NCBI RefSeq assembly: GCF_001995255.1
Contig: NZ_MUZR01000011.1
Location: 1-61,089, forward strand
From: Thioalkalivibrio halophilus
GTDB taxonomy: Bacteria; Pseudomonadota; Gammaproteobacteria; Ectothiorhodospirales; Ectothiorhodospiraceae
Length of the DNA: 61,089 nt
Direction of reading: 5' to 3'
Shown piece after piece: positions 48,004 through 60,819 of this stretch. The translations under genes were made by a program, and so were the position numbers. Position 1 is the first letter of the stretch. Each line of letters opens with the position of its first letter. The notes under the pieces were generated by a model that ran no database searches, was not told the origin of the DNA, and worked only from the letters and a program-made list of their open reading frames with translations.

Positions 48004-49401
48004 TTATTCCGCCCCGGGTCCCTGCAGCCCGTGCCGGCGCATCTTCTCCCACAGGTTCTTGCGGCTGATGCCCAGGTGCTCCGCGGTCTGCGTGATGCGC
48101 CATTCGTGGTGTTCCAGCGCCTGGCGGATGTAGGCGGCCTCCTGCGCCTGTAGGTAGTCGGCCAGCGGAGGGCGGGATGCCGGGTCTGTCGCTTCGGTTG
48201 ACGGGTCCCCGGAGGGCGGCAGGTGATCGGGGTCGGCCGGGTCGCACAGATCCGCCTCGCCCAGCACCGGGGCCGGGGAAAAGATGGTGGCCCGCTCCAG
48301 GCAGTGGCGCAGTTCGCGGACATTGCCCGGCCATTCGTGTTCCAGCATCGCCTGTTCCGCGTCGGCGGCCAGACGTCGGGGTTCGCCTCCTTCCCGGCGG
48401 GCCAGGTCCTCCAGGGTCTGGCGGGCCAGCCACAGGATGTCCTCGCGGCGGTCGCGCAGCGGAGGGATGCGCAGGTGCACGACGTTGATGCGGTAGAAGA
48501 GGTCCTCGCGGAAATCACCACGATCAACGTACTCGCGCAGGTTGCGATGGGTGGCACAGACCAGCCGCAGGTTCACGTCGAGCGGGTTTTCCGAGCCCAG
48601 CGGAGTGACCTGGCGCTCCTGGATGACGCGCAGCAGCTTGGCCTGCATGGCCAGCGACATGTCACCGATTTCGTCGAGGAACAAGGTCCCGCCGTCGGCC
48701 TGTTCAAAGACACCGCGACGCTGGCGCGTCGCTCCGGTGAAGGCCCCCTTCTCGTGGCCGAAGAGTTCGGCCTCCAGGAGATTCTCGGGCAGGGCGGCGC
48801 AATTGACGGCCACGAAAGGGGCATCCGGATTCGGCCCCGCGTTGTGCAGGGCATGGGCGACGAATTCCTTGCCCGCACCGGACTCGCCGGTGATCAGCAC
48901 GGTGGTCGCACGGGCGGCCACGCGTGGCAGCATCGCCGCCATGCGCTGCATCGGCAGTGACTTGCCCAGGGAAAGATCCGCTGCCGCAGAAACGGCATCA
49001 GCCGTTTGCATCCGCGGGTCTTCCTCGGCGCACAGTCCGCGGATCTGCCCGATCAGCGCGTCGAGGTCGAAGGGCTTGGTGATGTAGTCGGCCGCCCCCC
49101 GCTTGAGCAGGTCCACTGCGGTTTCCACCGCGCCATACCCGGTGATGAACAGGGTTCGCGGGGTCTCCTGGGCGAGGGTCTCCTGGAGTTGCGCAAACAG
49201 GGCGTCGCCCGTCAGGTCGGGCAGGCGGATATCGCTCACCATCAGGTGAAAGTGACGGTCGCCTTCGAGTGTCTCCCGGGCCGCGCCGGCGGTCTGGCAC
49301 CAGGTGACTTCGAAGCCTTCCAGTTCGAAGCGGTCGTACAGCGATTCCCCCATGATGGGATCGTCCTCGACCAGCAGGATGCGGCAGGAAGATGTGGTCA
49401 T
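48004..49401 (-). CDS. arxR: Sigma-54-dependent response regulator ArxR
   Basis: 465-residue NtrC-family activator. The receiver domain has phosphoacceptor Asp 57 (MVSDIRLPD). The AAA+ sigma-54-interaction domain has Walker A GESGAGKE at 172-179 and GAFTGA at 219-224. A Fis-type helix-turn-helix is at the C-terminus (EWRITQTAEHLGISRKNLWEKMRRHGL). GAFTGA means it works with sigma-54. The ATG at 49401 overlaps the arxS stop by 4 bp. By position with ArxX and ArxS it is the candidate activator for the arx operon, which carries a -24/-12 promoter and paired palindromes (see 53811-53870). Confidence 0.85.
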   Translation of the reverse strand: MTTSSCRILLVEDDPIMGESLYDRFELEGFEVTWCQTAGAARETLEGDRHFHLMVSDIRLPDLTGDALFAQLQETLAQETPRTLFITGYGAVETAVDLLKRGAADYITKPFDLDALIGQIRGLCAEEDPRMQTADAVSAAADLSLGKSLPMQRMAAMLPRVAARATTVLITGESGAGKEFVAHALHNAGPNPDAPFVAVNCAALPENLLEAELFGHEKGAFTGATRQRRGVFEQADGGTLFLDEIGDMSLAMQAKLLRVIQERQVTPLGSENPLDVNLRLVCATHRNLREYVDRGDFREDLFYRINVVHLRIPPLRDRREDILWLARQTLEDLARREGGEPRRLAADAEQAMLEHEWPGNVRELRHCLERATIFSPAPVLGEADLCDPADPDHLPPSGDPSTEATDPASRPPLADYLQAQEAAYIRQALEHHEWRITQTAEHLGISRKNLWEKMRRHGLQGPGAE

Positions 49402-50936
49402 GAGCGTTCCGAACGGTTGTCAGTGGGCGGCAGTGCGGGCTCCAGGGCCTCGGCCCGGGGAAGCCGGACTCGGAATTCGGTCCAGCCGGGCCGACTGTCG
49501 ACGTCGATCGTCCCCTTGAGCTGGGTGGTGATCTGCCAGGTCATCCAGAGTCCGATGCCGCGTCCCGCGGCGGCTTCGCGCGGTTCGGCCCCCGGCGGGG
49601 CATCGGGTTCGAACAGGCGGGCGACCCGGTCTTCCGGGATGTGCTGGCCGGTATTGCCGATCTGCAGTTTCAGGGCATCGTCATCGTACCGGATGCGGCA
49701 CTCGATCCGCCCGCCGTTTTCCACGGCCTGGGTGGCGTTGAGCAGCAGGTTGATGAGGATCTGCCGCACCAGCGCGGCGGGCAGGGGGATTGTTTCGCGC
49801 AGATCGTCATGCCAGTCGAGGCGCGCCTTCCTGCGCTGGATGTTCGGCTGGATCAGCGTGCGCACGTCCTGCAGGTCGGTGGGCGCCAGTGGCTGGCGTT
49901 CCGGACGTGCCTCGACCAGCAGCGCGGAGACGGTGTCGCGGATCTGCAGCAGCCCGCGTTCCAGCAGGTCCAGGGTGCGTGCTGTGCGGGCGTCGGTGTC
50001 ACCGTGGCGTTTCTGCGTGCTGATGGCGTTGAGCATGCCGCCCAGCGGATTGTTGATTTCGTGGGCGATGCCGCCGGTGAGCCGACCGACGGCCGCCAGA
50101 CGTTCCGAGGCCATGACCTGCTGCTCCAGGAGCTCCTTCTGGCGCAGTTCGGCGAGCATCTCGCGCAGGCGGCGGGAGAGCTGTCCGATCTCGTCGTTCG
50201 ACTCCTGCAGCCGGCATTCCGGTTCTTCAGGGATGCGGTCACCGACGCGTTTCATGCAGTCGGCGAGGGTGGTCAGCGGGCGGGCCATGCGCCGCCCCCA
50301 CCACCAGCTCAGTGGCAGGAGGGCCAGCAGGACCAGCAGGGTCACCGTCGCCGCGCGTTCCACCATCCCCACGAAGCGCGGCCAGTGGATGTCCCGCGGA
50401 TAGCGCAGGATCAGGGTGCCCATCATGACCCCGTCGGCCATGACCGGCTGGAGCATGAAATAGTGTTCTTCCCCGACCAGACGTCGTGGAGCGGGCGGGG
50501 TGGCATCCGATGTTTGCGGGCGGCTGAACATGTCCTCGATGGCTTGCGCCACCGGGGTCGGGGATGCGCCGGCCTCCTCCAGCGAGGCGAGCATGCGGGT
50601 TTCCCCGGGCTGGCTGGAGACGAAGATGCGTTGCCGGTCGTCCACCAGCAACAGCTTGTCCGCGCCGTTGTCGCCCGCGACCAGGGGTGCGCGGATGATC
50701 TCGTAGGCGCGCCAGACGTCGTCGTTGCGCATCGGCTCGACCAGGGTCTCGCTCAGTACGCCACCGAGGATCTCGGCATTGTTGAACAGATCCTGGCGGA
50801 GCTCGTCATAGACTCGGGTCACGATCGCGCTGGTCAGCGCGATGGCCGTCACCAGCATCAGGGCCGTCGCCCGGGCCGGGATCTTGTAGCGCAGACTGAG
50901 GTTGGCCGGCGAGGGCCATTCAGATAGCCATTTCAT
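49398..50936 (-). CDS. arxS: Sensor histidine kinase ArxS
   Basis: 512-residue membrane kinase. Two transmembrane segments (about 22-40 and 197-213) flank a periplasmic sensor domain. A HAMP-like segment is followed by the DHp domain with phospho-His 292 in GGIAHEINNPLGG and a HATPase domain (LINLLLNATQAVENGG, GRGIGLWMTWQI). The ATG at 50936 is chosen because it starts a normal kinase N-terminus and overlaps the end of arxX by 17 bp. It probably receives the ArxX signal and phosphorylates ArxR. Confidence 0.86.
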   Translation of the reverse strand: MKWLSEWPSPANLSLRYKIPARATALMLVTAIALTSAIVTRVYDELRQDLFNNAEILGGVLSETLVEPMRNDDVWRAYEIIRAPLVAGDNGADKLLLVDDRQRIFVSSQPGETRMLASLEEAGASPTPVAQAIEDMFSRPQTSDATPPAPRRLVGEEHYFMLQPVMADGVMMGTLILRYPRDIHWPRFVGMVERAATVTLLVLLALLPLSWWWGRRMARPLTTLADCMKRVGDRIPEEPECRLQESNDEIGQLSRRLREMLAELRQKELLEQQVMASERLAAVGRLTGGIAHEINNPLGGMLNAISTQKRHGDTDARTARTLDLLERGLLQIRDTVSALLVEARPERQPLAPTDLQDVRTLIQPNIQRRKARLDWHDDLRETIPLPAALVRQILINLLLNATQAVENGGRIECRIRYDDDALKLQIGNTGQHIPEDRVARLFEPDAPPGAEPREAAAGRGIGLWMTWQITTQLKGTIDVDSRPGWTEFRVRLPRAEALEPALPPTDNRSERS

Positions 50937-51765
50937 CGGCGATCCGGCGCACGCTGTCGTAGAGCTCGGGACTCGTGGGGTCGAACCCGTCGAGCCCCAG
51001 GGCCGCAAGGATCCCGCGCCCCTCGTCGTGATCGGACATCGAGTCCAGCACCTCGCGACAGTGCCGGGCGTCCTCCTCGGGAAAGGCGTCACGCGCGACG
51101 ATCGGCGGGAAACCGTGGTAACGCGAGCGCGAGACGATCCGGGTACGCGCGACCACCGCGGGTTCGTGTTGCTTCAGCATGTCCCAGACATAGCCATCCA
51201 CGGCGGCTCCGTCCACCAGGCGTTCGGCCACGGCCTTGATGGCGTTGCGATGGGTCCACGACATGATCGTACGGGCAAAGTAGCCATCCGGATCCGCGCC
51301 GGTGGCGAAGATCGCATGACGGGGAAGGTGGTAGCCGGACAGCGAGTCCGGGTCGCTGTAGGCAAAGAAGCGGCCCTGCAGATCGGTGATGGTGTGGGTG
51401 TCCTGATCGGAGTCAGGAACAATCAGGTACGAACGGTAGAGGGGCCGTCCGTCGTAAACCGGGGTGACCAGCAGCCGTAACCGCTCTTCCTCGATCACAT
51501 AGGGGTAGCTGCACAGCCAGGCGACGTCGAGGTCACCCAGGCGCAGCAGCTCCATGATCTCGGCATAACTCCCCCGCTGGATCAAGCGAACCGGCCTGAG
51601 CAGTCGCTGTTCCAGGAAGTGCCGCCAGCGCCGCAGCAGCGCTTCGCGGTGGTCGAGAAAGACCGGCGTAAGACCGAAACGCAGCACGCGGGGTTCCGGA
51701 CCGTCGGCCAGCAGCTTTCCGGCCGGCGCCGCCAGCGCCATTCCGAGAAAACCGCGTCGATTCAA
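50920..51765 (-). CDS. arxX: Periplasmic substrate-binding sensor ArxX (PhnD/AioX-like)
   Basis: 281-residue binding protein of the phosphate/phosphonate-binding (PhnD) class. It has a twin-arginine-like export signal (MNRRGFLGMALAAP) and a PBP-like fold in FGLTPVFLDHREALL, GDLDVAWLCSYPYV (Cys 85) and RNAIKAVAERLVDGAAVDGYVWD. In AioX relatives an essential Cys binds arsenite; whether Cys 85 is that residue is untested here. First gene of arxXSR on the minus strand. It probably senses arsenite and signals through ArxS. Confidence 0.82.
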   Translation of the reverse strand: MNRRGFLGMALAAPAGKLLADGPEPRVLRFGLTPVFLDHREALLRRWRHFLEQRLLRPVRLIQRGSYAEIMELLRLGDLDVAWLCSYPYVIEEERLRLLVTPVYDGRPLYRSYLIVPDSDQDTHTITDLQGRFFAYSDPDSLSGYHLPRHAIFATGADPDGYFARTIMSWTHRNAIKAVAERLVDGAAVDGYVWDMLKQHEPAVVARTRIVSRSRYHGFPPIVARDAFPEEDARHCREVLDSMSDHDEGRGILAALGLDGFDPTSPELYDSVRRIADEMAI

Positions 51766-51904: not shown

Positions 51905-52375
51905 TCAGTCCTTGATGGCCAGGACCGTCGCACGGATACGCAGCGGATGGCCGGCCAGCGGGTGGTTGCCGTCGAGCAGCGCGCCGCGCTCGGTCAGTTC
52001 CACCACCCGCAGCTGCCATGCACGCCGGCCCGACTCGTCTCCGGTGTACAGTGGCAGTCCGGGTTCCAGGCGTACGTCGGCGGGCAGGTTGTCGCGCACC
52101 GCCTCGAAAACCAGTTCCGGACGGCGTTCGCCGAAGGCGCGGGCCGCGGGGATTTCCAGCTCTTCCGGCTGTCCCGTCGCCAGGCCGAGCACGGCTTCGT
52201 CGAGCCCCGGCAGCGGGGGTGTTTCGGTCCCGATGCGAAGGCGGATTTCGTGTTCGTCCGCATCCAGTCCGGCAGTATTCAGAGGCAGTTCACCCTCGGG
52301 TCGGATACTGTAGCGAAGGTGAACGTGATCACCGTTGCGCACGCAGCGATCGGAGGCTTCGTGATTCGGCGGCAT
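51905..52375 (-). CDS. SlyD-like FKBP-type peptidyl-prolyl isomerase
   Basis: 156 residues. The FKBP core (DHVHLRYSIRPEGE, FEAVRDNLPADVRLEPG) and the SlyD flap signature DGNHPLAGHPLRIRATVL are present. SlyD's metal-binding His/Cys-rich tail is missing, so it is a short SlyD/FKBP family member, likely cytoplasmic. It lies in the arx island on the same strand as arxXSR, 139 bp upstream of arxX, and could be cotranscribed with it. A folding role for arx proteins is inference. Confidence 0.88.
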   Translation of the reverse strand: MPPNHEASDRCVRNGDHVHLRYSIRPEGELPLNTAGLDADEHEIRLRIGTETPPLPGLDEAVLGLATGQPEELEIPAARAFGERRPELVFEAVRDNLPADVRLEPGLPLYTGDESGRRAWQLRVVELTERGALLDGNHPLAGHPLRIRATVLAIKD

Positions 52376-52734
52376 AGGGTGTCCCGTTCAGGAAATAAAA
52401 GGGTCAGGGCCCGCACGGGGCGGGCCGCCTGACAAGGCCCACAGGAGGAGCACGCTTCACCGGCTCCGGAAGCAAGACTCGGACCATGTTGAAATACGGA
52501 TATTATTCAATGGCTTGGGGTTTTCCTGTCGGCTGTCGATTACCGCGGGGTAACATCGCCCGCGGTTCGATGGCGCCGGAGGTTACACTCCGGTAACGGG
52601 TTTACGGTGCGCCATGACCCCTTGTCCCTGACAGGCATGAGGGAAGAGACCGGCCCGAACCGGCGTCCTGTCAGGGTGGGGCCCGGACGAACCGGGCTGG
52701 ACCGAATTCCGCAAAGAACTGGGGAGAACGATTG
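52376..52734. promoter_or_regulatory. Divergent promoter region, SlyD-like and degenerate MBL genes
   Basis: 359 bp without a gene. It contains two GTYAC-N6-GTAAC palindromes (52539-52554 and 52582-52597, annotated separately). A 10-bp inverted repeat CCCTGACAGG (52626-52635) / CCTGTCAGGG (52667-52676), with 31 nt between arms, could fold in RNA or bind a protein. A GC-rich hairpin is near 52407-52428. No convincing -24/-12 element is found for the MBL gene: the best match (TGG at 52698, GC at 52711) would place the transcript start on top of the ribosome-binding site. An AT-rich stretch lies at 52490-52510. Confidence 0.5.
52539..52597. promoter_or_regulatory. Paired ArxR-like palindromes upstream of the MBL gene
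   Basis: ATTAC-CGCGGG-GTAAC at 52539-52554 and GTTAC-ACTCCG-GTAAC at 52582-52597. Centres lie 43 bp apart, about four helical turns. The same GTYAC-N6-GTAAC form and spacing recur upstream of arxB2. The pair stands 138 bp or more upstream of the MBL start and also faces the divergent SlyD-like gene. Binding by ArxR is inferred from position and motif. Confidence 0.6.
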
Positions 52735-53724
52735 ATGACGATGAACAGATGGCTCGTGACGGGGTGCCTTTCCCTCGCCATGGCCACCACGGCGGCCGCC
52801 GGGGTGGAGATCCCGGCGGACAGTGAACGCCTGAGTGATGCGCGCACCTCCGATCTCGAACGGGTGGACGCGCTGCAGCCCGTGCGCGTGGCCGAAGATA
52901 TCTACGCAATCATTGGTTCCGTGGAGAACCGCACCTACGAGAACGAGGCCCTGAACGTGAATCTGGGCTTCGTGGTCACCGAAGAAGGCGTGGTGCTGAT
53001 CGATTCCGGCCCCTCCCGGCGTTTCGGCGGGCTTCTGGAAGAGGCGGTGTCCGAAGTGACCGAAAAACCCGTGACGCACGTGATCGGGATCGGCGCCCAG
53101 GACCACCGCTGGCTGGCCAATGGCTATTTCGAGGAGCAGGGTGCGGAGCTGATCGCGCTGGAACGGACGGTCGCGACCCGACTGGACTTTGCCGACCGTC
53201 ATATGGACCGGCTCTCGGGCGTGCTGGATGATCGGTTCGAGGGTAGCGAGCCGGTGGTGACCGATGCGCCGCTGGAAGGCGACCGGCAGGTGCTGGAGAT
53301 CGGTGGTACCGAATTCCATCTGGAATACTGGGCGGATGCCCACTTCCCGGGTGACGCGGTGCTGTATCTGCCCGCAACCGACGTTCTGTTCTCCGGCGAC
53401 CTGGTCTACGTCGACCGTATCCTCGGTATCCATCCGTGGAGTGACCCCGTGCAGTGGGTGGAAGCCCTCGATCAGCTGGAAGAGCGCGCCCCGGCCGCCG
53501 TGGTACCGGGGCACGGCGACGTGGCCGACATGGCGCGGGTGAAGGCCGACACGATCGATTACATGCGCTACATCACCGAGGGTTCGGCCCGGCACATCGA
53601 GGACTGGTCCAGCCTGGACGAAGCCGTGAACGATCTGGCGGATGCTCCGCAGTTCGAACATCTGCTCCATTTTGATCAGTGGCACCGGACGAACGTGAAC
53701 CGGACGTATCTTTTCATGGAGTGA
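52735..53724 (+). CDS. Exported MBL-fold protein with degenerate metal site
   Basis: 329 residues with a signal peptide (about 1-22, TAAAG). The fold and overall sequence belong to the SoxH/quinoprotein-relay type of metallo-beta-lactamase (GFVVTEEGVVLIDSGPSRRFG, AHFPGDAVLYLPATDVLFSGDLVYVDR, VPGHGD). The HxHxDH motif is lost: the segment reads VIGIGAQDHRWLANGYF, so only Asp 123 and His 124 remain. Later His and Asp positions are kept. Start ATG 52735 has GGGGAG 8 bases upstream. The gene ends at a strong terminator, so it is monocistronic. It lies between the arx regulator and structural operons with matching operators; role unknown. Confidence 0.8.
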   Translation: MTMNRWLVTGCLSLAMATTAAAGVEIPADSERLSDARTSDLERVDALQPVRVAEDIYAIIGSVENRTYENEALNVNLGFVVTEEGVVLIDSGPSRRFGGLLEEAVSEVTEKPVTHVIGIGAQDHRWLANGYFEEQGAELIALERTVATRLDFADRHMDRLSGVLDDRFEGSEPVVTDAPLEGDRQVLEIGGTEFHLEYWADAHFPGDAVLYLPATDVLFSGDLVYVDRILGIHPWSDPVQWVEALDQLEERAPAAVVPGHGDVADMARVKADTIDYMRYITEGSARHIEDWSSLDEAVNDLADAPQFEHLLHFDQWHRTNVNRTYLFME

Positions 53725-53750
53725 CGGCGGCCCCGCTTCGCCCGACAGAG

Positions 53751-53784
53751 GCCCCGGTACCGGAAACGGTGCCGGGGCTTTTTT
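53751..53784 (+). terminator. Rho-independent terminator of the MBL gene
   Basis: Stem GCCCCGGTACCG (53751-53762), loop GAAA, stem CGGTGCCGGGGC (53767-53778) with one G:U-type pair, followed by TTTTTT (53779-53784). It ends transcription of the MBL gene 27 bp after its stop and separates it from the arx promoter. Confidence 0.9.
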
Positions 53785-53810: not shown

Positions 53811-53870
53811 GTCACCGTGAGGTAACCGGCGTCCGGCCGCTCGTGTACGCCCTCGTCACCGTTAAGTAAC
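53811..53870. promoter_or_regulatory. Paired enhancer sites for the arx operon
   Basis: GTCAC-CGTGAG-GTAAC at 53811-53826 and GTCAC-CGTTAA-GTAAC at 53855-53870, centres 44 bp apart. They lie about 131 and 88 bp upstream of the predicted sigma-54 start site near 53950, the usual distance for NtrC-type enhancers. Form and spacing match 52539-52597. Confidence 0.75.
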
Positions 53871-53923
53871 GCCGGGCGAAAGGAAAAGATCGCATGGCGC
53901 GCCATGGAGGCATTTCGGGAACA

Positions 53924-53940
53924 CGGCATGTCCCTTGCTT
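53924..53940 (+). promoter_or_regulatory. Sigma-54 (-24/-12) promoter of arxB2-arxA-arxB1-arxC
   Basis: CGGCATG-N4-TTGCTT at 53924-53940, with the invariant GG and GC 10 bases apart. It matches the TGGCACG-N4-TTGCA consensus at all but the first and sixth base of the -24 box. The predicted start near 53950 leaves about 45 nt of leader before the ATG at 53995. An NtrC-type activator (ArxR) is encoded nearby. Confidence 0.8.
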
Positions 53941-53994: not shown

Positions 53995-55254
53995 ATGTCA
54001 TCAGCCGATACCGCCGAAATCCGGTTTCGCCGGTTGCACCCGGATATCTCCGAACTGGCCTTTCTGGCCGAGGACTGCCTGCCGGCGCGTTCGCCGCTGT
54101 CGCGCTGCGATGACTGCGCGCGCGCCTGCCCGGTGGATGTCCTGACGGCGGTCAAGGGGAAGCTGGAGCTGAGCGATGGCTGTCTGCGCTGCGGACGTTG
54201 TGCTGCCGCCTGTCCCACCGGTGCCCTGCGCGCGGCGGATTTCCCGCGCACCGAGGCCATGCAGGAGATGCCCCCGGCCCGCGACGAACCCCTGTATGTG
54301 GACTGCTGGCGGGTGCCGGAGGAGGTATCTCCGGAAGGGGCCCTGCGCGTGCCCTGTACCGGCGGACTCGACGCGGGGGCGGTGGCCGAGCTGACGAGTC
54401 TGCGTGATGGCCCGGTGGTGGTGCTGGATCGTGGCTGGTGCGAACGGTGTCCCGCCGGGGGGGGTGCCCGCCCGGCGCAGACCGCCCTGGAAACCGCGGC
54501 CGCGGCCCTCGACGCCGCGGAGGCGATGGAATCGCTGCTGCCGCGGTTCGAGGCGCGCGGGTTGCCGCGCGAACGGGCACGGGGCGACGGCCCGCCGGCG
54601 CGTTCGGCCATGACTGCCGTGAGCCGTCGCGGCCTGTTCCGGCGCATGGCCGGGGAGGTCGCCGGAGCGCTGGACGACACACCCATGGAGGCCGAAGGCG
54701 AGGGCCCGTCGCGCCCGTTGCGCGATCGCATCCCCGCGCCCCCGCGACAGCGCATGGTGCGCGCGCTCGAGCGTTTCGATGAAACGCTCCCGGCCAGCCA
54801 GCGCCCCGGACTGAACGTGGATCAGGACGCCTGCTGTAACCAGCGGGTGTGCGCCTCGCTGTGTCCCACCGGGGCGCTGGAGGCCTTCGATGCCGAGGGC
54901 GGGAGTGGACTGCACTTCCGTCCGGAGGAGTGCATCGGTTGCGAATTGTGCGTGCGCGTATGTCCCGAGCGCGCGCTCACCTCGTACCCCGAAGGGGGGC
55001 AGTCGGGAGAACTGACCCGGCATGCATTCCGCCGTTGTCCGGAATGCCGGAGACCGTTCGCGGGCGGCGAAGGACGTTTCTGTCCGTCCTGCGACAAGAA
55101 ATACGGCCTGCTCGCGGGGGGTGGCTACGAGCTGCTCTTCGGGCAGGCCCCCGATTCCCGGGCGCCCGATGGCTGCGGTGCCCGGGTACAACAGGCGAGT
55201 CGCGATGCGGCCAGCGCCGATGCGAAGACGAGAGGGAGTGAGAGTCCGATATGA
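53995..55254 (+). CDS. arxB2: Arx polyferredoxin, ArxB2
   Basis: 419-residue iron-sulfur protein with four or more ferredoxin-type cluster motifs. Cys 38, 41, 45 (with Cys 28) form one group; 63, 66, 69, 73 (CLRCGRCAAACPTGAL) another; 280/281, 286, 290 a third; 313, 316, 319, 323 (CIGCELCVRVCPERAL) a fourth. A C-terminal Cys pair set (348/351, 363/366: CPECRRPF...FCPSC) looks like a zinc ribbon. No export signal is evident. ATG 53995 (GGAG 5 bases upstream) is chosen over GTG 53953, which would start at the transcript start itself. First gene of the operon; overlaps arxA by 4 bp. Confidence 0.85.
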   Translation: MSSADTAEIRFRRLHPDISELAFLAEDCLPARSPLSRCDDCARACPVDVLTAVKGKLELSDGCLRCGRCAAACPTGALRAADFPRTEAMQEMPPARDEPLYVDCWRVPEEVSPEGALRVPCTGGLDAGAVAELTSLRDGPVVVLDRGWCERCPAGGGARPAQTALETAAAALDAAEAMESLLPRFEARGLPRERARGDGPPARSAMTAVSRRGLFRRMAGEVAGALDDTPMEAEGEGPSRPLRDRIPAPPRQRMVRALERFDETLPASQRPGLNVDQDACCNQRVCASLCPTGALEAFDAEGGSGLHFRPEECIGCELCVRVCPERALTSYPEGGQSGELTRHAFRRCPECRRPFAGGEGRFCPSCDKKYGLLAGGGYELLFGQAPDSRAPDGCGARVQQASRDAASADAKTRGSESPI

Positions 55255-57791
55255 AGAATATCCTCGAGAGCATGTTCACGCGGAGGCGGTTTCTGCAGAC
55301 CTCCGGGGCAACCGGGGCCGCGGCGTTCGGCGCCGCCGGCATGGCCAAGCTGACCGGCTTTTCCGCGGTCGGGGCGGGCGGTGCTGCACCGTCGAATGCG
55401 GCCGCGGCCTCCAATGGCAGCTGGAAGGACCTGCAGATGACCAAGAACATCTGCCACCAGTGTCCGGCCCGCTGCGGTATCAATGTCTACACCTACGAAG
55501 ACCCGTCCACCGGTAACCGGCGGGTGACGAGCATCTACGGCGACCCGGGCAATCCGATCGCCAATGGCAAGCTGTGCCCGAAGGGGCATCTGGGAACGTA
55601 CTTCCTCTACGACCCGGACCGCTTCAAGCAGCCCATGCGCCGGACCAACCCGAACAAGGGTCGGGACGAGGATCCGGGCTGGGAGCCCATCTCCTGGGAC
55701 GAGGCCTATGACGAGATCGCGAGCCGGATCAACGAACTGCGCGAGAACGGCGAGGCCCACAAGATCGCGCATCTCTACGGCCGGGGCTGGGGACCGAGTG
55801 ACGCCGGCCTGTACGGCGACTGGGGCAAACTGGTCGGTACGCCGAACGCGGCCATCGGCCACGCCTCCATCTGCGCGGAAGGCTCCAAGCACGCCAAGGC
55901 CGCAGTCGAGGGCAACGCGTCGTACAACTCCTACGACTACAAGAACACCAACTACCTGCTGATCTTCGGCGCGGGCTTTCTCGAGGCCTTCCGCCCGTAC
56001 AACTACCTGATGCAGGTCTGGGGTCACATGCGCACCAAGAGCCCGAAGACCCGGGTCACCACGGTGGACGTGCGCATGAACCCCACCATGGCGGCATCGG
56101 ACCGCTACCTGATGACCAAACCCGGCACCGACGGGGCCCTGGCCCTGGCCATGGCCCACGTGATCCTCACCGAAGGGCTGTGGGATCGCGAGTTCGTGGG
56201 GGACTTCGACGACGGCGAGAATCGCTTCTCCACCGGCTCCACCGTGGACGCGGAGCGCTTCGAGGAGGTCTGGACCCGGGGGCTCGTCGACTGGTGGAAC
56301 GCCGAGCTCAAGGACCGCACGCCGGAATGGGCGGCCGGGATCACTGGCGTCGACGCGGACGACATCCGCCGGACGGCGGTGGAATTCGGTTCCACGCGCC
56401 CGGCCATGGCGATCTTCGAGCGCGGCCCCACCGCGCACACCAACGGGGTCTACAACGGCATGGCGATCCATGCGCTGAACGCGCTGTCGGGCTCGATGTT
56501 CGCCGAGGGCGGGCTGTTCTACCAGATGGGCCCGTCCTATGCTTCCGGGCCGGCCGACGCGGACGACTACCGCGACGGGATCTCGCGGACCATGGAAGGC
56601 CGCTATCCGCGCATCGACATGGCCGGCACCGAGCGCTGGCCGTTCGCCGGGACCATGATGCAGGAGGTCGCGAAGAACCATAACGCCGGCGACCCCTACA
56701 AGCTGAAGATGGCGATGTTCTACACCACCAACCCCATCTGGACCGCACCGGATGCGCCGGAATGGGAAAAGATGATGAGCGAGATCTTCGTGGTGGATAC
56801 CTCGCCGTTCCCCGGCGAGACCGCGAAATTCGCCGACATCGTGCTGCCGGAGTCGACCTACCTCGAGCGCCTGCAGGATTCGCCGACCTATCCGTTCGAG
56901 GGCTGGCCCATGACCGCTCTGCGCGTGCCGGCGGTGGAGCCGATCTACGACACCACCGAGTTCGGCAACATGATGATCGAGATCGGCAAGCGGATTAAGG
57001 GGCCCACCAGCGACTACTACCGTCAGGTGGATAACGTCGAGAACCTGCTGAAGCACCTGGCCCGCGGATTCGAGGATGATCCCGGCGACAACGGCGTCGA
57101 CGGCTGGGAGGCCTGGAAAGAGCAGGGGGTCTGGTACAAGAAGCCCTACCACTGGAAGCAGCACCGTGGCGTGTTCTACGAGTGGGATGGCGAGGGCTAC
57201 AACATCGAGATGACCGAGGAAGAGGTCAGGGAAAAGCTCATGCCCACCGAATCGGGCAAGTTCGAGTTCGATTCCTCCTACCTGCGCGCTGAGGTCGACT
57301 ACATCACCCAGCATCTGAACGTGAGCCGGGACCGGGTCGGTTTCCCGCAGTGGCTGGATCCGGAATACACGGGCGGCAATCGGGACCTGCACTTCGTCAC
57401 GCCCAAGACCCCGATGACCGCCGAGGGTCGCAGCGGGAATATCCCGCAGGCCACGGCCCTGATGCAGCCCAGCGTTGGCGGCAACGATCGCTGTTACGTG
57501 GAGATGCACCCGCAGACGGCGCGCGAGCGCGGCATCAAGGACGGCGACCGGGTCCGGATCACGGCGGATCTCGGCAGTATCGAGGCCTACGTGCGCCTGA
57601 TGCCGCAGAACCGTCCGGACACCATCATCCTGCCCTACGAGCACGGGCACTGGGCCCAGGGGCGCTGGGCCGAGGCCCAGGAGCGTGCCACCGCACCGGG
57701 TAACCCCAACGAAATGACCGAAAACGTCTCGGACCCGATCTCGGGCCTGGCGGCCTATTACACCGGCCGGGTCGATGTCGAGCGCGTCTGA
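55251..57791 (+). CDS. arxA: Anaerobic arsenite oxidase catalytic subunit ArxA
   Basis: 846-residue DMSO-reductase-family molybdoenzyme. It has a Tat signal (RRRFLQTSGATG, residues 11-22), the [4Fe-4S] motif C68-x2-C71-x3-C75...C109, and the Mo-bis-MGD fold. The motif YGRGWG (residues 176-181) is that reported for ArxA, where ArrA has a different sequence. The Mo ligand is Cys 208 in GHASICAEGSK. His 204 and Lys 213 align with the ArrA active-site H189 and K198 by their offsets from Cys. It oxidises arsenite (or runs the reverse, arsenate reduction) in the periplasm. The closest alternative is ArrA. Confidence 0.9.
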   Translation: MKNILESMFTRRRFLQTSGATGAAAFGAAGMAKLTGFSAVGAGGAAPSNAAAASNGSWKDLQMTKNICHQCPARCGINVYTYEDPSTGNRRVTSIYGDPGNPIANGKLCPKGHLGTYFLYDPDRFKQPMRRTNPNKGRDEDPGWEPISWDEAYDEIASRINELRENGEAHKIAHLYGRGWGPSDAGLYGDWGKLVGTPNAAIGHASICAEGSKHAKAAVEGNASYNSYDYKNTNYLLIFGAGFLEAFRPYNYLMQVWGHMRTKSPKTRVTTVDVRMNPTMAASDRYLMTKPGTDGALALAMAHVILTEGLWDREFVGDFDDGENRFSTGSTVDAERFEEVWTRGLVDWWNAELKDRTPEWAAGITGVDADDIRRTAVEFGSTRPAMAIFERGPTAHTNGVYNGMAIHALNALSGSMFAEGGLFYQMGPSYASGPADADDYRDGISRTMEGRYPRIDMAGTERWPFAGTMMQEVAKNHNAGDPYKLKMAMFYTTNPIWTAPDAPEWEKMMSEIFVVDTSPFPGETAKFADIVLPESTYLERLQDSPTYPFEGWPMTALRVPAVEPIYDTTEFGNMMIEIGKRIKGPTSDYYRQVDNVENLLKHLARGFEDDPGDNGVDGWEAWKEQGVWYKKPYHWKQHRGVFYEWDGEGYNIEMTEEEVREKLMPTESGKFEFDSSYLRAEVDYITQHLNVSRDRVGFPQWLDPEYTGGNRDLHFVTPKTPMTAEGRSGNIPQATALMQPSVGGNDRCYVEMHPQTARERGIKDGDRVRITADLGSIEAYVRLMPQNRPDTIILPYEHGHWAQGRWAEAQERATAPGNPNEMTENVSDPISGLAAYYTGRVDVERV

Positions 57792-57825: not shown

Positions 57826-58572
57826 ATGGCGAAATGGGGAATGGTCATTGACCTCGATAAATGTACGGGCTGCCAGGCCTGTACCACGGCCTGTGACATG
57901 GAGAACGACACCCTGCCGGGCGAGAGCTGGCAGGACGTTCTGTACTACACCGAAGGGGAGTATCCCAGTGGTCAGATGAAGTGGCTGCCACGGCCCTGCA
58001 TGCAGTGCGAGGACCCGTCCTGCGTGCATGTCTGCCCGACCCGGGCCACCTACAAGGACCACGATGCGGGCGGCATCGTGTTCATCGACTGGGACAAGTG
58101 CATCGGCTGCAAGTACTGCATGATCGCCTGCCCCTACGGCGTGCGGTTCTTCGCGGATGAAAAGCCGCTGGTGGAGCCGGATCTCAAGGAGGTCTTTGCC
58201 GGCAGCGGCGGGCAGCTGTGGGATCCGCCGGGGCAGAGCCCGGATACCGACTATCGCCGTGGCATCGGCGTGCAGCCCAAGGGCGTCGTGTCCAAGTGCA
58301 CCTTCTGCTACCACCGCGTGAAGGAAGCCCCCGAAGGGGTCCCGGACCTCGACGAGGATGATCCCGAGCTGGTCGATTACGTTCCGGCCTGTGTGCGGAC
58401 CTGCCCGCCCAAGGCCCGGTTCTTCGGCGATCTCGACAATCCCGCCAGCAATGTCAACAAGCTGATCGGGAACAAGAACGGCATTCGCCTGAAGGACCAC
58501 ACCGGCAACCGCCCGCAGGTCTACTACCTCGGCGCCGGCGCGGGCATCCCCGCGTTCCAGCCCAAGTCGTAA
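57826..58572 (+). CDS. arxB1: Arx iron-sulfur electron-transfer subunit ArxB1
   Basis: 248 residues, DmsB/NrfC-type. Four clusters are visible: Cys 13/16/19/23 (CTGCQACTTACDM), CMQCEDPSCVHVCP, CIGCKYCMIACPYG and CTFCYHRV with CVRTCPP. There is no signal peptide, so it is carried out with ArxA by the Tat system. It passes electrons from ArxA to the membrane anchor ArxC. It starts 34 bp after the arxA stop and ends 12 bp before arxC. Confidence 0.88.
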   Translation: MAKWGMVIDLDKCTGCQACTTACDMENDTLPGESWQDVLYYTEGEYPSGQMKWLPRPCMQCEDPSCVHVCPTRATYKDHDAGGIVFIDWDKCIGCKYCMIACPYGVRFFADEKPLVEPDLKEVFAGSGGQLWDPPGQSPDTDYRRGIGVQPKGVVSKCTFCYHRVKEAPEGVPDLDEDDPELVDYVPACVRTCPPKARFFGDLDNPASNVNKLIGNKNGIRLKDHTGNRPQVYYLGAGAGIPAFQPKS

Positions 58573-58584
58573 GGGAGACGATTC

Positions 58585-59796
58585 ATGACTGCGCAAGACA
58601 ACCAATCGGGCAATCCGGCGCTGTTCACGCCGATGCTCTACGTCGGAGCGGCGATCGCGATCATCGCGTTCGTCTTTTCCGGCTTCATGCTGATGACCCA
58701 GGGTCACGCCGCATTCAACATGGATGCGAACGTGGCGTGGGGTCTGCCCATTTCCACCTACGTGTACTTCGCCCTGATGTCCTCGGGGCTCACGCTGCTG
58801 GCCGCGCTGGCCATGGTGTTCGGGTTCAAGCAGTACTACCCGCTGGTGAAGCGGGCCATCTGGCTGGCGATCATCACCCTGGTCGCCGGGCTTGCGGTGC
58901 TGGCCATGGAGATCGGTCACACCTTCCGCATGTTGTGGGCCATCCCGCTGAACCTGCAGGTCGAGTCGGCCATGTTCTGGATGGGCGTGTTCTATCTGGC
59001 GGATCTGATCTTCCTGCTGTGGAAGTTCCAGCGCATGGAACGCGGCGACTGGAGCAGCAAGCTCAGCCGTCAGGTCGGAATCGCGGGTTTCATCGCCGTG
59101 GTGCTGGCCGCCGGGACGCTGGCGCTGGTGTTCGGCATGATGAGCATGCGTCCGTTCTGGTACGACCCGACCCTGCCGGTGTGGTTCTACGCCACCGCCG
59201 CGCTGACCGGTGTCGCCGGTCTGGTGTTCTTCACCTACCTGAGCTACGGCATGAATACCGAACGCATGCCGAAGGCGCTGCGCATGGACATGGAAGGCCC
59301 GCTGCCGCGGCTGTTCCTGATCCTGCTGTTCATCACCCTGGTGATGTTCCTGGCGCGTCTGACCACCGGGCTGTATGCCAATGCGACCGAAGTGAACGTG
59401 GTGTGGGCGGACTACCTGCTGGCTTCGGGCTGGTTCCATCTCGGCGTGTGGGGCGGCATCCTGCTGCCGTTCGTGCTGTTGCTGGCACGCGGCCTGCGCC
59501 AGTCGCCGGCGATCCAGATGCTGGCCGCCGTGCTGGTGCTGGTGGGCATGTTCATCGAGCGCCTGTACTTCGTGGTTGGCGGTCAGGTGGTCCCGCTGTT
59601 CAAGGGCACCTGGGAGCGTGACCTGGTGGCCTACGTGCCGTCGCCGACGGAATGGGTGCTGACCGTCATGGGTATCGCCCTGGTCTTCGCCCTGTATGCC
59701 CTGGGCGAGCGGCTGTTCAACCTGAGCGACATGCCGCAGGCAGAGCCGGGCGAGGCCGAAGCCGAACCCGAAGCCACGGCCGAAGCACGCTCTTGA
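58585..59796 (+). CDS. arxC: Arx membrane anchor ArxC (NrfD-like quinone subunit)
   Basis: 403-residue integral membrane protein of the NrfD/PsrC family with eight to ten transmembrane helices. Recognisable parts are GLPISTYVYFALMSSGLTLL, AMEIGHTFRMLWAIPLN and the later WADYLLASGWFHLG. It exchanges electrons with the quinone pool, here probably receiving them from ArxB1. The start ATG is at 58585. The acidic Glu/Ala-rich C-terminus is typical of halophiles. It is followed by a terminator-like hairpin before arxD. Confidence 0.9.
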   Translation: MTAQDNQSGNPALFTPMLYVGAAIAIIAFVFSGFMLMTQGHAAFNMDANVAWGLPISTYVYFALMSSGLTLLAALAMVFGFKQYYPLVKRAIWLAIITLVAGLAVLAMEIGHTFRMLWAIPLNLQVESAMFWMGVFYLADLIFLLWKFQRMERGDWSSKLSRQVGIAGFIAVVLAAGTLALVFGMMSMRPFWYDPTLPVWFYATAALTGVAGLVFFTYLSYGMNTERMPKALRMDMEGPLPRLFLILLFITLVMFLARLTTGLYANATEVNVVWADYLLASGWFHLGVWGGILLPFVLLLARGLRQSPAIQMLAAVLVLVGMFIERLYFVVGGQVVPLFKGTWERDLVAYVPSPTEWVLTVMGIALVFALYALGERLFNLSDMPQAEPGEAEAEPEATAEARS

Positions 59797-59835
59797 GCGG
59801 CCGGCCATCCGCGTGAATGTGGCACGGCCACAGGG

Positions 59836-59866
59836 ACGGGCCGGGGTACGCCTCCGGCCCGTTTTT
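59836..59866 (+). terminator. Terminator-like hairpin between arxC and arxD
   Basis: Stem ACGGGCCGG (59836-59844), 9-nt loop, stem CCGGCCCGT (59854-59862), then TTTTT (59862-59866). It lies 40 bp after the arxC stop and 18 bp before the arxD start. It may reduce transcript reaching arxD and moaA, giving the chaperone less expression than the enzyme. Confidence 0.75.
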
Positions 59867-59883
59867 GTATACAAGGAGCGAAA

Positions 59884-60819
59884 ATGAACCTTGAAGCAAC
59901 GCAAACCGAAACCGATTTCCTGGTCCCCTTCGGCGAGACCCTGCTCTGCCTCGGGCAGGCGTTCCTGACGCCGAAGGAATCCGAGCGGGCGAATGCCCTG
60001 CGGGACGACCTGGTTCCGGATCTCGAAGCCCTGCGGGAAGCGACCGGAGTCCCCGCAGCCGGGGAACTGGACGCCCTGGCGTCGGCACTGCGGTCCACCG
60101 CGGACGCCGAGGGCGGCCTGCTGCGCGTCTACAGCCGACTGTTCCTGGCTCCTCCGTTTCCGGCTCCTCTGAATGCCGGCATCCAGCTCGACGGGGCCCT
60201 GATGGGGCAGAGCACGGTGGAGATGGAACGTTTTTACCAGCGCCACGGCCTGACCCGGGACCGCGAATTTCGCGATCTTCCGGATCACCTGGCCCTGCAA
60301 CTCCAGTTCGTCGCTTTCCTGCACGCGAAGGCCGCGGAGACGGAGGACCGGGAGGAATGCGCCGCGATCGCCGGTGATGCGCGCTATTTCGTGCGTCAGC
60401 TGATGCTGTCGTGGTTCCCCGGATGGCTGGAACAGCTGGACGAGGCGGTAACGCACCTCCCGACCGCGGAAGCCTGGCGCCAGCTGGGGCGGGTGACCCG
60501 CGAGGTGCTGGAGGCCGACGTGGTCTACCTGGAGGCCCTGGCTCCCGAAGTGCACGCCGAAACCGCCGCCAGGCCGTCGCTGGAAGAGGCACTGGACGCG
60601 CGCATGGCGCCCGAGCGCTCGCTGGAGGCCCCGGCCGCCTGCCGGGTGTGCGGCAAGGAATTCGCCATGGGCCGCGACATGGTGTTCATGCTGCAGCAGC
60701 TGCAGGCGCGCGGGCTGGAGACCGAACACCTGGAGGCCTGTCCGGATTGTCGTGCCGGCGAGATGGGACTGTCGGAAACCACGGTGGAATTGCCGGCGGC
60801 GGTGAGCAAGCATGTCTGA
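59884..60819 (+). CDS. arxD: Arx molybdoenzyme chaperone ArxD (TorD family)
   Basis: 311-residue TorD/DmsD-type chaperone with an all-helical domain (about 10-215) including YSRLFLAPPFPAPLNAG and LALQLQFVAFLHAKAAE. It folds apo-ArxA and oversees cofactor insertion and Tat export. Unusually, the C-terminus carries two Cys pairs, CRVC (253/256) and CPDC (286/289), spaced 29 residues apart like a zinc site. AAGGAG precedes ATG 59884. It overlaps moaA by 8 bp. Confidence 0.88.
   Translation: MNLEATQTETDFLVPFGETLLCLGQAFLTPKESERANALRDDLVPDLEALREATGVPAAGELDALASALRSTADAEGGLLRVYSRLFLAPPFPAPLNAGIQLDGALMGQSTVEMERFYQRHGLTRDREFRDLPDHLALQLQFVAFLHAKAAETEDREECAAIAGDARYFVRQLMLSWFPGWLEQLDEAVTHLPTAEAWRQLGRVTREVLEADVVYLEALAPEVHAETAARPSLEEALDARMAPERSLEAPAACRVCGKEFAMGRDMVFMLQQLQARGLETEHLEACPDCRAGEMGLSETTVELPAAVSKHV

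Follow-up and report, generated by a model that had tools for sequence, protein, structure and literature searches.

Paired palindromes before the arx operon of Thioalkalivibrio halophilus, best read as ArxR operators of a sigma-54 promoter, and the two operator spellings of related regulators

The stretch of DNA analysed here, which we call the window, consists of 61,089 nucleotides from Thioalkalivibrio halophilus (NZ_MUZR01000011.1), whose genome measures 2.87 Mb. It holds an arx island, the closest arxA relatives of which in our search came from Thioalkalivibrio. The structural operon on the plus strand begins with arxB2, a ferredoxin-type protein (53995–55254, likely from the ATG at 53995), and continues with arxA, the catalytic subunit of anaerobic arsenite oxidase, named for its resemblance to the arxA proteins of known clusters (55251–57791), and with arxB, arxC and arxD (57826–60819). 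On the minus strand, a gene for an FKBP-type peptidyl-prolyl isomerase (51905–52375; Pfam match just below the cut-off) would be the first of a divergent transcript including arxX, a PhnD-type periplasmic binding protein (50920–51765), arxS, a sensor kinase whose open frame overlaps arxX and whose start is approximate (49398–51092), and arxR (48004–49401). The latter encodes an NtrC-type activator with a receiver domain, an AAA+ domain and a Fis-type helix-turn-helix with the helix SRKNLWEKM; the GAFTGA motif that the first-pass annotation had reported for ArxR is present in the AAA+ domain. The FKBP-type gene accompanies arx in 14 of 34 loci, the window included, and in 4 of 11 further loci (L101–L104, L101 repeating L011); it is divergent in the window, L009 and L010 and lies on the same strand beyond arxD in L011, L012, L014, L015, L017, L019, L021, L023, L024, L037 and L039.

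Sequence patterns place two predicted ArxR operators before arxB2ABCD, a distal one, GTCACCGTGAGGTAAC, at 53811–53826 and a proximal one, GTCACCGTTAAGTAAC, at 53855–53870, neither assigned to a strand. Both read GTCAC-N6-GTAAC and their centres are 44 bp apart, exactly as the first-pass annotation had described them, and the sigma-54 box with invariant GG and GC that it had drawn downstream is likewise there. This plus-strand -24/-12 box, CGGCATGTCCCTTGCT, occupies 53924–53939, starts 69 bp from the proximal operator and has its GG at 53925–53926 and its GC at 53937–53938; relative to the sigma-54 consensus, the GG-N10-GC core is kept and the preceding base is C instead of T. From the position of the box, we infer a transcription start for arxB2ABCD at about 53950. 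The genome contains rpoN (477.8 bits, cut-off 277.35), and the features that characterize a sigma-54 promoter under an NtrC-type activator are all found: a GG-N10-GC box, rpoN, and an activator with receiver, GAFTGA-bearing AAA+ and Fis-type domains. The arrangement typical of AioR/ArxR operators, two copies upstream of a sigma-54 box adjoining an XSR module, is found as well. A perfect 14-bp palindrome, CATGGCGCGCCATG, lies at 53893–53906, downstream of the near operator and before the -24 box; it occurs in 4 of 178 loci, all of them copies of the window stretch. Farther upstream, a strong plus-strand hairpin followed by a T-run (53747–53784; z -6.0, 0 of 200 shuffles folding equally well) is a probable terminator between a preceding gene of the MBL fold and the arx promoter, and a simple pattern scan for terminators did not list it.

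The island has a second pair of predicted operators, which as such was absent from the first-pass annotation's claim. The copy distal to a predicted minus-strand promoter, GTTACACTCCGGTAAC, lies at 52582–52597 and the proximal one, ATTACCGCGGGGTAAC, which has one mismatch, at 52539–52554 (both found by sequence pattern, with no strand assigned). They are 43 bp apart and 68 bp from a sigma-54 box on the minus strand, TGGTCCGAGTCTTGCT (52486–52471), that faces FKBP-arxXSR and scores equal to the arxB2 box. The two promoters are thus near mirror images, with distances of 69 and 44 bp in one and 68 and 43 bp in the other. Between them lies a plus-strand gene of the MBL fold (52732–53724), resembling PQQ/SoxH-related zinc metallohydrolases below the cut-off; a homologue (51%) adjoins arxR in L105. 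That the second pair drives this gene is unsupported, the best plus-strand box scoring 3.5. In L009, L010 and L016, a minus-strand sigma-54 box, TGGCCCGATGGTTGCT, is found at the matching place, L016 ending before the position where an FKBP-type gene would lie.

The pattern GTYAC-N6-GTRAC occurs three times in the window against 0.15 expected, a count reached by none of 100 shuffles, and six times in the whole genome, three of these inside the arx island, while the reversed-pattern control gave two matches. The shorter TTAC-N6-GTAA showed no excess in the genome (three matches, as in the control), and a loose scan of the window for sigma-54 boxes with two mismatches gave 56, no more than the 68.6 expected by chance. 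Under a stricter box score of our own devising, four boxes in the window reach 6.0, and two of the four stand at the two operator pairs.

For comparison, a protein search gave 124 relatives, from which 80 loci were kept; 33 of them encode arxA at 55% identity or more (L009–L041), whereas L042–L088, at 23–28% identity, were not treated as arx. Other loci were added from genome and plasmid searches. One plasmid search had 481 matching records; 14 hits from it and one further search were taken in, and H6, H9, H15, H18 and others left out. The arx comparison set of 36 loci took in 27 of the 33 together with the window and 8 additions, and fell into 32 promoter clusters. Dropped were L013, L014, L022, L024, L025 and L028, where the upstream DNA was too short or the promoter undefined; L101, on the same contig as L011; L118, with no arxXSR found and arxB2 elsewhere; the truncated L119; L123 and L150, which have no annotated arsenic enzyme gene; L146 and L147; and the short duplicates L089–L100, L108–L111 and L126–L136. 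Related loci, such as L029–L033, L106/L107, L120/L121 and L116/L125, are not independent, and upstream stretches were counted from alignment starts rather than mapped start codons.

When all palindromes of five-nucleotide half-sites with spacers of 0–20 were counted in the 32 cluster representatives, GTTAC with a spacer of six ranked first, with at least one exact copy in 25 and at least two in 20. The runner-up, TTACC with a spacer of four (in 6 of 32), is this palindrome displaced by one position, and no unrelated palindrome came near; in base-shuffled promoters, an average of 0.01 of 32 had at least one site. The 450-bp stretches preceding arxB2 contain 50 exact matches to GTYAC-N6-GTRAC in 14.4 kb, compared with 8 in 631 kb for the remainder of these loci, a 274-fold higher density; one of the eight outside sites is a member of the window's second pair. 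Allowing one mismatch to this pattern, 27 of 32 representatives have sites. Among the 52 representative sites, positions 2, 4, 5, 12, 15 and 16 are invariant, an invariance that comes partly from their selection at no more than one mismatch, and position 6 is C in 42. Extra exact GTTAC-N6-GTAAC copies lie off the promoter pair in L029, L032, L033 and L034 (about +524 to +539 from the arxB2 alignment start) and in L030, L031, L112 (+203), L019 (+65) and L105 (-575); those of Aromatoleum/Azoarcus fall inside arxB2. L106 and L107 have three successive operators, with gaps of 30 and 34 bp and no downstream sigma-54 box at score 4.5.

The sites follow the regulator. We distinguished regulators with the recognition helix RK[NST]LWE (K type) from those with RTT[LF]W (T type). 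The absence of the palindromes from orthologous arx promoters, which the first-pass annotation had named as evidence against its reading, was not borne out: a K-type ArxR accompanies 29 of the 36 arx loci, and every one of these contains GTTAC-type sites within one mismatch, 25 of them at least two and four a single one (L027, L035, L037 and L112). Two further arx loci combine a T-type regulator with GTTCG pairs, and five have no ArxR match. Three of these five (L017 Billgrantia, L021 Halomonas and L023) have no site; L036 has sites but its contig stops inside arxS, leaving no arxR, and L019, whose 10-kb contig showed no arxXSR, has a site pair. Outside this set, L118, where no arxXSR was found, has no exact site and three one-mismatch matches, including one at 331 bp upstream of arxA, and the aio locus L142, with no regulator detected, has one site with one mismatch. 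Because an earlier paper reports arxXSR as missing in Oceanospirillales (PMC6549141), the siteless Halomonas and Billgrantia serve as a natural control, albeit one representing a single lineage. The arrA loci found by profile (L146 and L147, the latter of 8.1 kb) had no GTTAC or GTTCG site within one mismatch and no detected AioR-type regulator.

At the genome scale, all 11 arx-bearing genomes tested contained exact GTTAC-N6-GTAAC, against none of 10 arx-free congeners searched (10 of 25 such congeners), and 22 of the 26 sites lie at arx; G021, an arx-free genome outside the ten, has an exact site at hdrC, not arx, and would make this 1 of 11. As the reversed-pattern control gave 17 matches in the same 21 genomes against 26, the informative property is the place of the sites and not their number. 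Ten of the 11 arx-bearing genomes have at least two exact sites at arx, whereas the window's own genome has one there. Its only exact copy outside the island (C40:34091) precedes an hdrC-like gene and drew attention since the arx-bearing congener G022 shares it. We rejected it as a new ArxR target because the hdrC match occurs with or without arx: in the corresponding position, a match with up to three mismatches is found in 24 of the 25 genus genomes with hdrC (our own included; 30 searched), in 23 of them within one. The conserved element, GTTRCC..GGTAA about 90–100 bp before the hdrC-like gene (L007:6092–6107 and 24 of 25 hdrC loci, L154–L178), is probably the site of another regulator mimicking the predicted ArxR operator. 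The other two non-arx exact sites lie inside a coding frame (G010) and between two genes (G008). The genome matches on C5 and C7 were also set aside, having no second site within two mismatches and no sigma-54 box above 4.

The spacing of the sites is stepped. With the highest-scoring box picked regardless of spacing, the near site lies 48, 58, 69–71, 80–82, 92–93, 102–104, 114 or 138 bp from it in 24 of 27 site-bearing representatives; the remaining three have no box at score 4.5 (L032, with a 3.5-scoring box at 80 bp, L038 and L106). The distances are phased with a period of 11.2 bp (R 0.907; R 0.739 at 10.5), a pattern seen in 0 of 20,000 random sets for the 14 distinct values and at P 5e-5 for eight classes grouped by eye, all of these statistics counting related promoters as independent. 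Of 13 T-type promoters examined, nine entered a test against the phase obtained from the K-type promoters and were consistent with it (P 0.003, or P 0.03 on distinct values), though shifted by about 1.2 bp. Excluded from this test were L138, which has no site, L144 and L145, which lack a usable box, and L018, whose best box scores 2.0. The gap between paired sites is 33–34 or 42–45 bp in 24 of 26 cases, and 30 and 90 bp in the other two. An activator that assembles into a ring on one face of the DNA would require such stepped spacing; for a preferred period longer than the usual 10.5 bp we offer no explanation.

Elements of this kind are known from aerobic arsenite oxidase genes. Earlier papers describe an AioR motif with a DNase footprint on mcp of A. 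tumefaciens GW4 (Shi 2017, PMC5335332), and two tandem palindrome-like sequences with -24/-12 boxes in all 12 aioBA operons with aioXSR, absent from operons without it (Li 2013, PMC3834237); in Herminiimonas, the aoxAB start has been mapped and rpoN insertions abolish oxidase activity (PMC2848651; see also PMC6011840). The aioBA upstream activating sequences share with arx a 16-bp palindrome, two tandem copies, a -24/-12 box and an NtrC-type regulator of an XSR module. The spelling and spacing differ: six named alphaproteobacterial aio loci have GTTCG-N6-CGAAC within one mismatch, and five of them hold two such sites separated by 29–33 bp, whereas arx sites are mostly GTTAC-N6-GTAAC, 42–45 or 33–34 bp apart. 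The published AioR motif appears to merge both spellings. The window's arx sites read GTC-N10-AAC; C as the third base agrees with the longer motif (GT[TC]) and conflicts with GTTN10AAC, and a comparison by hand shows two departures of each site from the published 16-position motif. In the second pair, GTTACACTCCGGTAAC fits GTTN10AAC. The first-pass annotation had tentatively given the AioR operator the form GTTNC-N6-GNAAC. This was roughly right in that a degenerate AioR motif and paired palindromes are in print, but not in its exact form, as the string GTTNC was not found in the literature searched and the footprinted GTTCG-N6-CGAAC does not fit it.

For arx, a study of Alkalilimnicola ehrlichii MLHE-1 reports, as in the window, an ArxR, a predicted RpoN promoter and an AioR-like ArxR site before arx, together with differing phylogenies of regulators and enzymes (Badilla 2018, PMC5908839). 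The site given there, gtaacaattcaagc, differs in not being a GTTAC-N6-GTAAC palindrome and might represent a single GTAAC half-site in a shifted register; none of the 178 loci compared contains either published string. Two papers from 2019 state that ArxR/ArxXSR had yet to be shown to act in the expression of arx (PMC6683785, PMC6549141). Beyond the papers cited, our searches, whose coverage left out most subscription journals, gave no arx promoter study and no study of the AioR/ArxR recognition helix among the matches listed.

The spelling extends across enzymes. Burkholderiales aioBA loci (Caballeronia L114, Paraburkholderia L120 and L121, Hydrogenophaga L149) have GTTAC-type sites within one mismatch and a K-type AioR, with pairs 43 bp apart in three of four and a single site in L149, but unlike arx they drive the aerobic oxidase AioBA. 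An Azoarcus sp. KH32C plasmid (L113) resembles arx in its GTTAC-type pair 44 bp apart, sigma-54 box and K-type regulator, and differs in driving what is read from gene order as a respiratory arsenate reductase cluster. The idea that arx and aio promoters share the same recognition code therefore holds for the four Burkholderiales AioR of GTTAC type and fails for the six named alphaproteobacterial AioR of GTTCG type. With at most one mismatch, GTTAC-type sites occur at all 34 loci with K-type regulators (29 arx, 1 arr and 4 aio) and GTTCG-type sites at none, whereas among the 14 loci with T-type regulators (2 arx and 12 aio), 13 have GTTCG-type and none GTTAC-type sites. Two of the three aio loci without a detected regulator have neither type and one has a single one-mismatch GTTAC site. 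In 7 of 12 T-type aio promoters, two sites lie 29–33 bp apart, often one of them weaker, in agreement with the tandem palindromes of Li and colleagues. The two arx loci of Rhodobacteraceae have GTTCG, as expected from the helix, although an earlier hint meant that this expectation was not blind. The window, with its GTCAC-GTAAC sites and helix RKNLW, does not fit the GTTCG dialect.

As judged from these sequences, the force of the split is that enzyme type is uncoupled from dialect, with arx and aio on both sides; the dialect follows the regulator lineage and not the enzyme. The existence of two operator dialects is apparently new. One reading, to which we give an even chance, is a two-dialect code set by one recognition-helix residue, lysine reading GTTAC-N6-GTAAC and threonine GTTCG-N6-CGAAC, with aio, arx and arr as interchangeable cargo under one layout and a fixed helical face. 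In the maximum-likelihood tree, the K and T types lie on opposite sides of one branch (one change, support 100/100), so that the dialect split amounts to one evolutionary change and all 48 regulators represent one event; furthermore, since the K/T residue served to define the groups, their perfect separation by it is by construction, while column -30 separates them just as fully and columns -29, -27, -23, -6 and +2 nearly so. Both points favour the alternative that other differences in the DNA-binding domain produced the split and the K/T residue does not set specificity, which we regard as having somewhat less than an even chance. What speaks for the helix residue is that, among the group-separating columns, only +1 and +2 fall in the recognition helix, and the corresponding residues of Fis/NtrC-type helices touch DNA.

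On the identity of the element in the window we are far more confident. The element is real, regulatory and well conserved, and its best reading is a pair of ArxR operators belonging to a sigma-54 promoter; the claim that ArxR operators drive such a promoter here is strongly supported by the comparison. A point against it is that the window's own arx sites read GTCAC-GTAAC and that their box has no leading T. As a whole, the palindromes are very probably a tandem upstream activating sequence for ArxR. The sites, with their conservation, pairing, stepped spacing and link to the regulator, come from sequence and comparison; the model we infer from them adds the binding of ArxR, arsenite as the signal, ring assembly, the start sites and the reading of arxXSR from the FKBP promoter. 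According to this model, ArxX would bind arsenite in the periplasm and activate ArxS, which would phosphorylate ArxR; ArxR dimers would then bind both GTYAC-N6-GTAAC sites on one helix face and assemble an AAA+ ring, and the ring would contact RNA polymerase with sigma-54 at 53924–53939 to start arxB2ABCD from about 53950. The mirror-image promoter (sites at 52539 and 52582, box at 52486–52471) probably drives FKBP and arxXSR, which would result in positive autoregulation.

The palindromes could instead be bound by a different regulator, for instance of the ArsR/AioF type or PhoB, with ArxR acting elsewhere. Precedents are AioF, which in Thiomonas binds the aioB region next to a putative AioR site (PMC7533571), and PhoBR, reported to control aio in Halomonas HAL1 (PMC4563254); some loci also have extra sites inside arxB2. 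The sites nevertheless co-occur with arxR-type genes and not with arx itself (L019 and L142 being exceptions), stand at stepped distances from the sigma-54 box and differ in spelling between the two regulator lineages, and we consider a different regulator very unlikely. That the pair is a chance feature without a role would gain from the lack of box excess in the loose scan, from TTAC-N6-GTAA being no commoner than its control and from the look-alike before hdrC. Against this stand the window count never reached in shuffles, the sites in 27 of 32 cluster representatives and the lack of any comparable unrelated palindrome, and we find chance barely credible.

Paired palindromes before aioBA and one predicted ArxR site are already in print. 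To this known kind our analysis adds the arx set, a divergent second promoter, a phase rule and two dialects. As at least two exact sites occur at arx in 10 of the 11 arx-bearing genomes, the GTTAC site pair could help annotation. The two spellings offer a reason for the degeneracy of the published AioR motif at positions 4 and 5. For the arx island itself, the sites give exact bases to mutate and predict a divergent, perhaps autoregulated, FKBP-arxXSR promoter.
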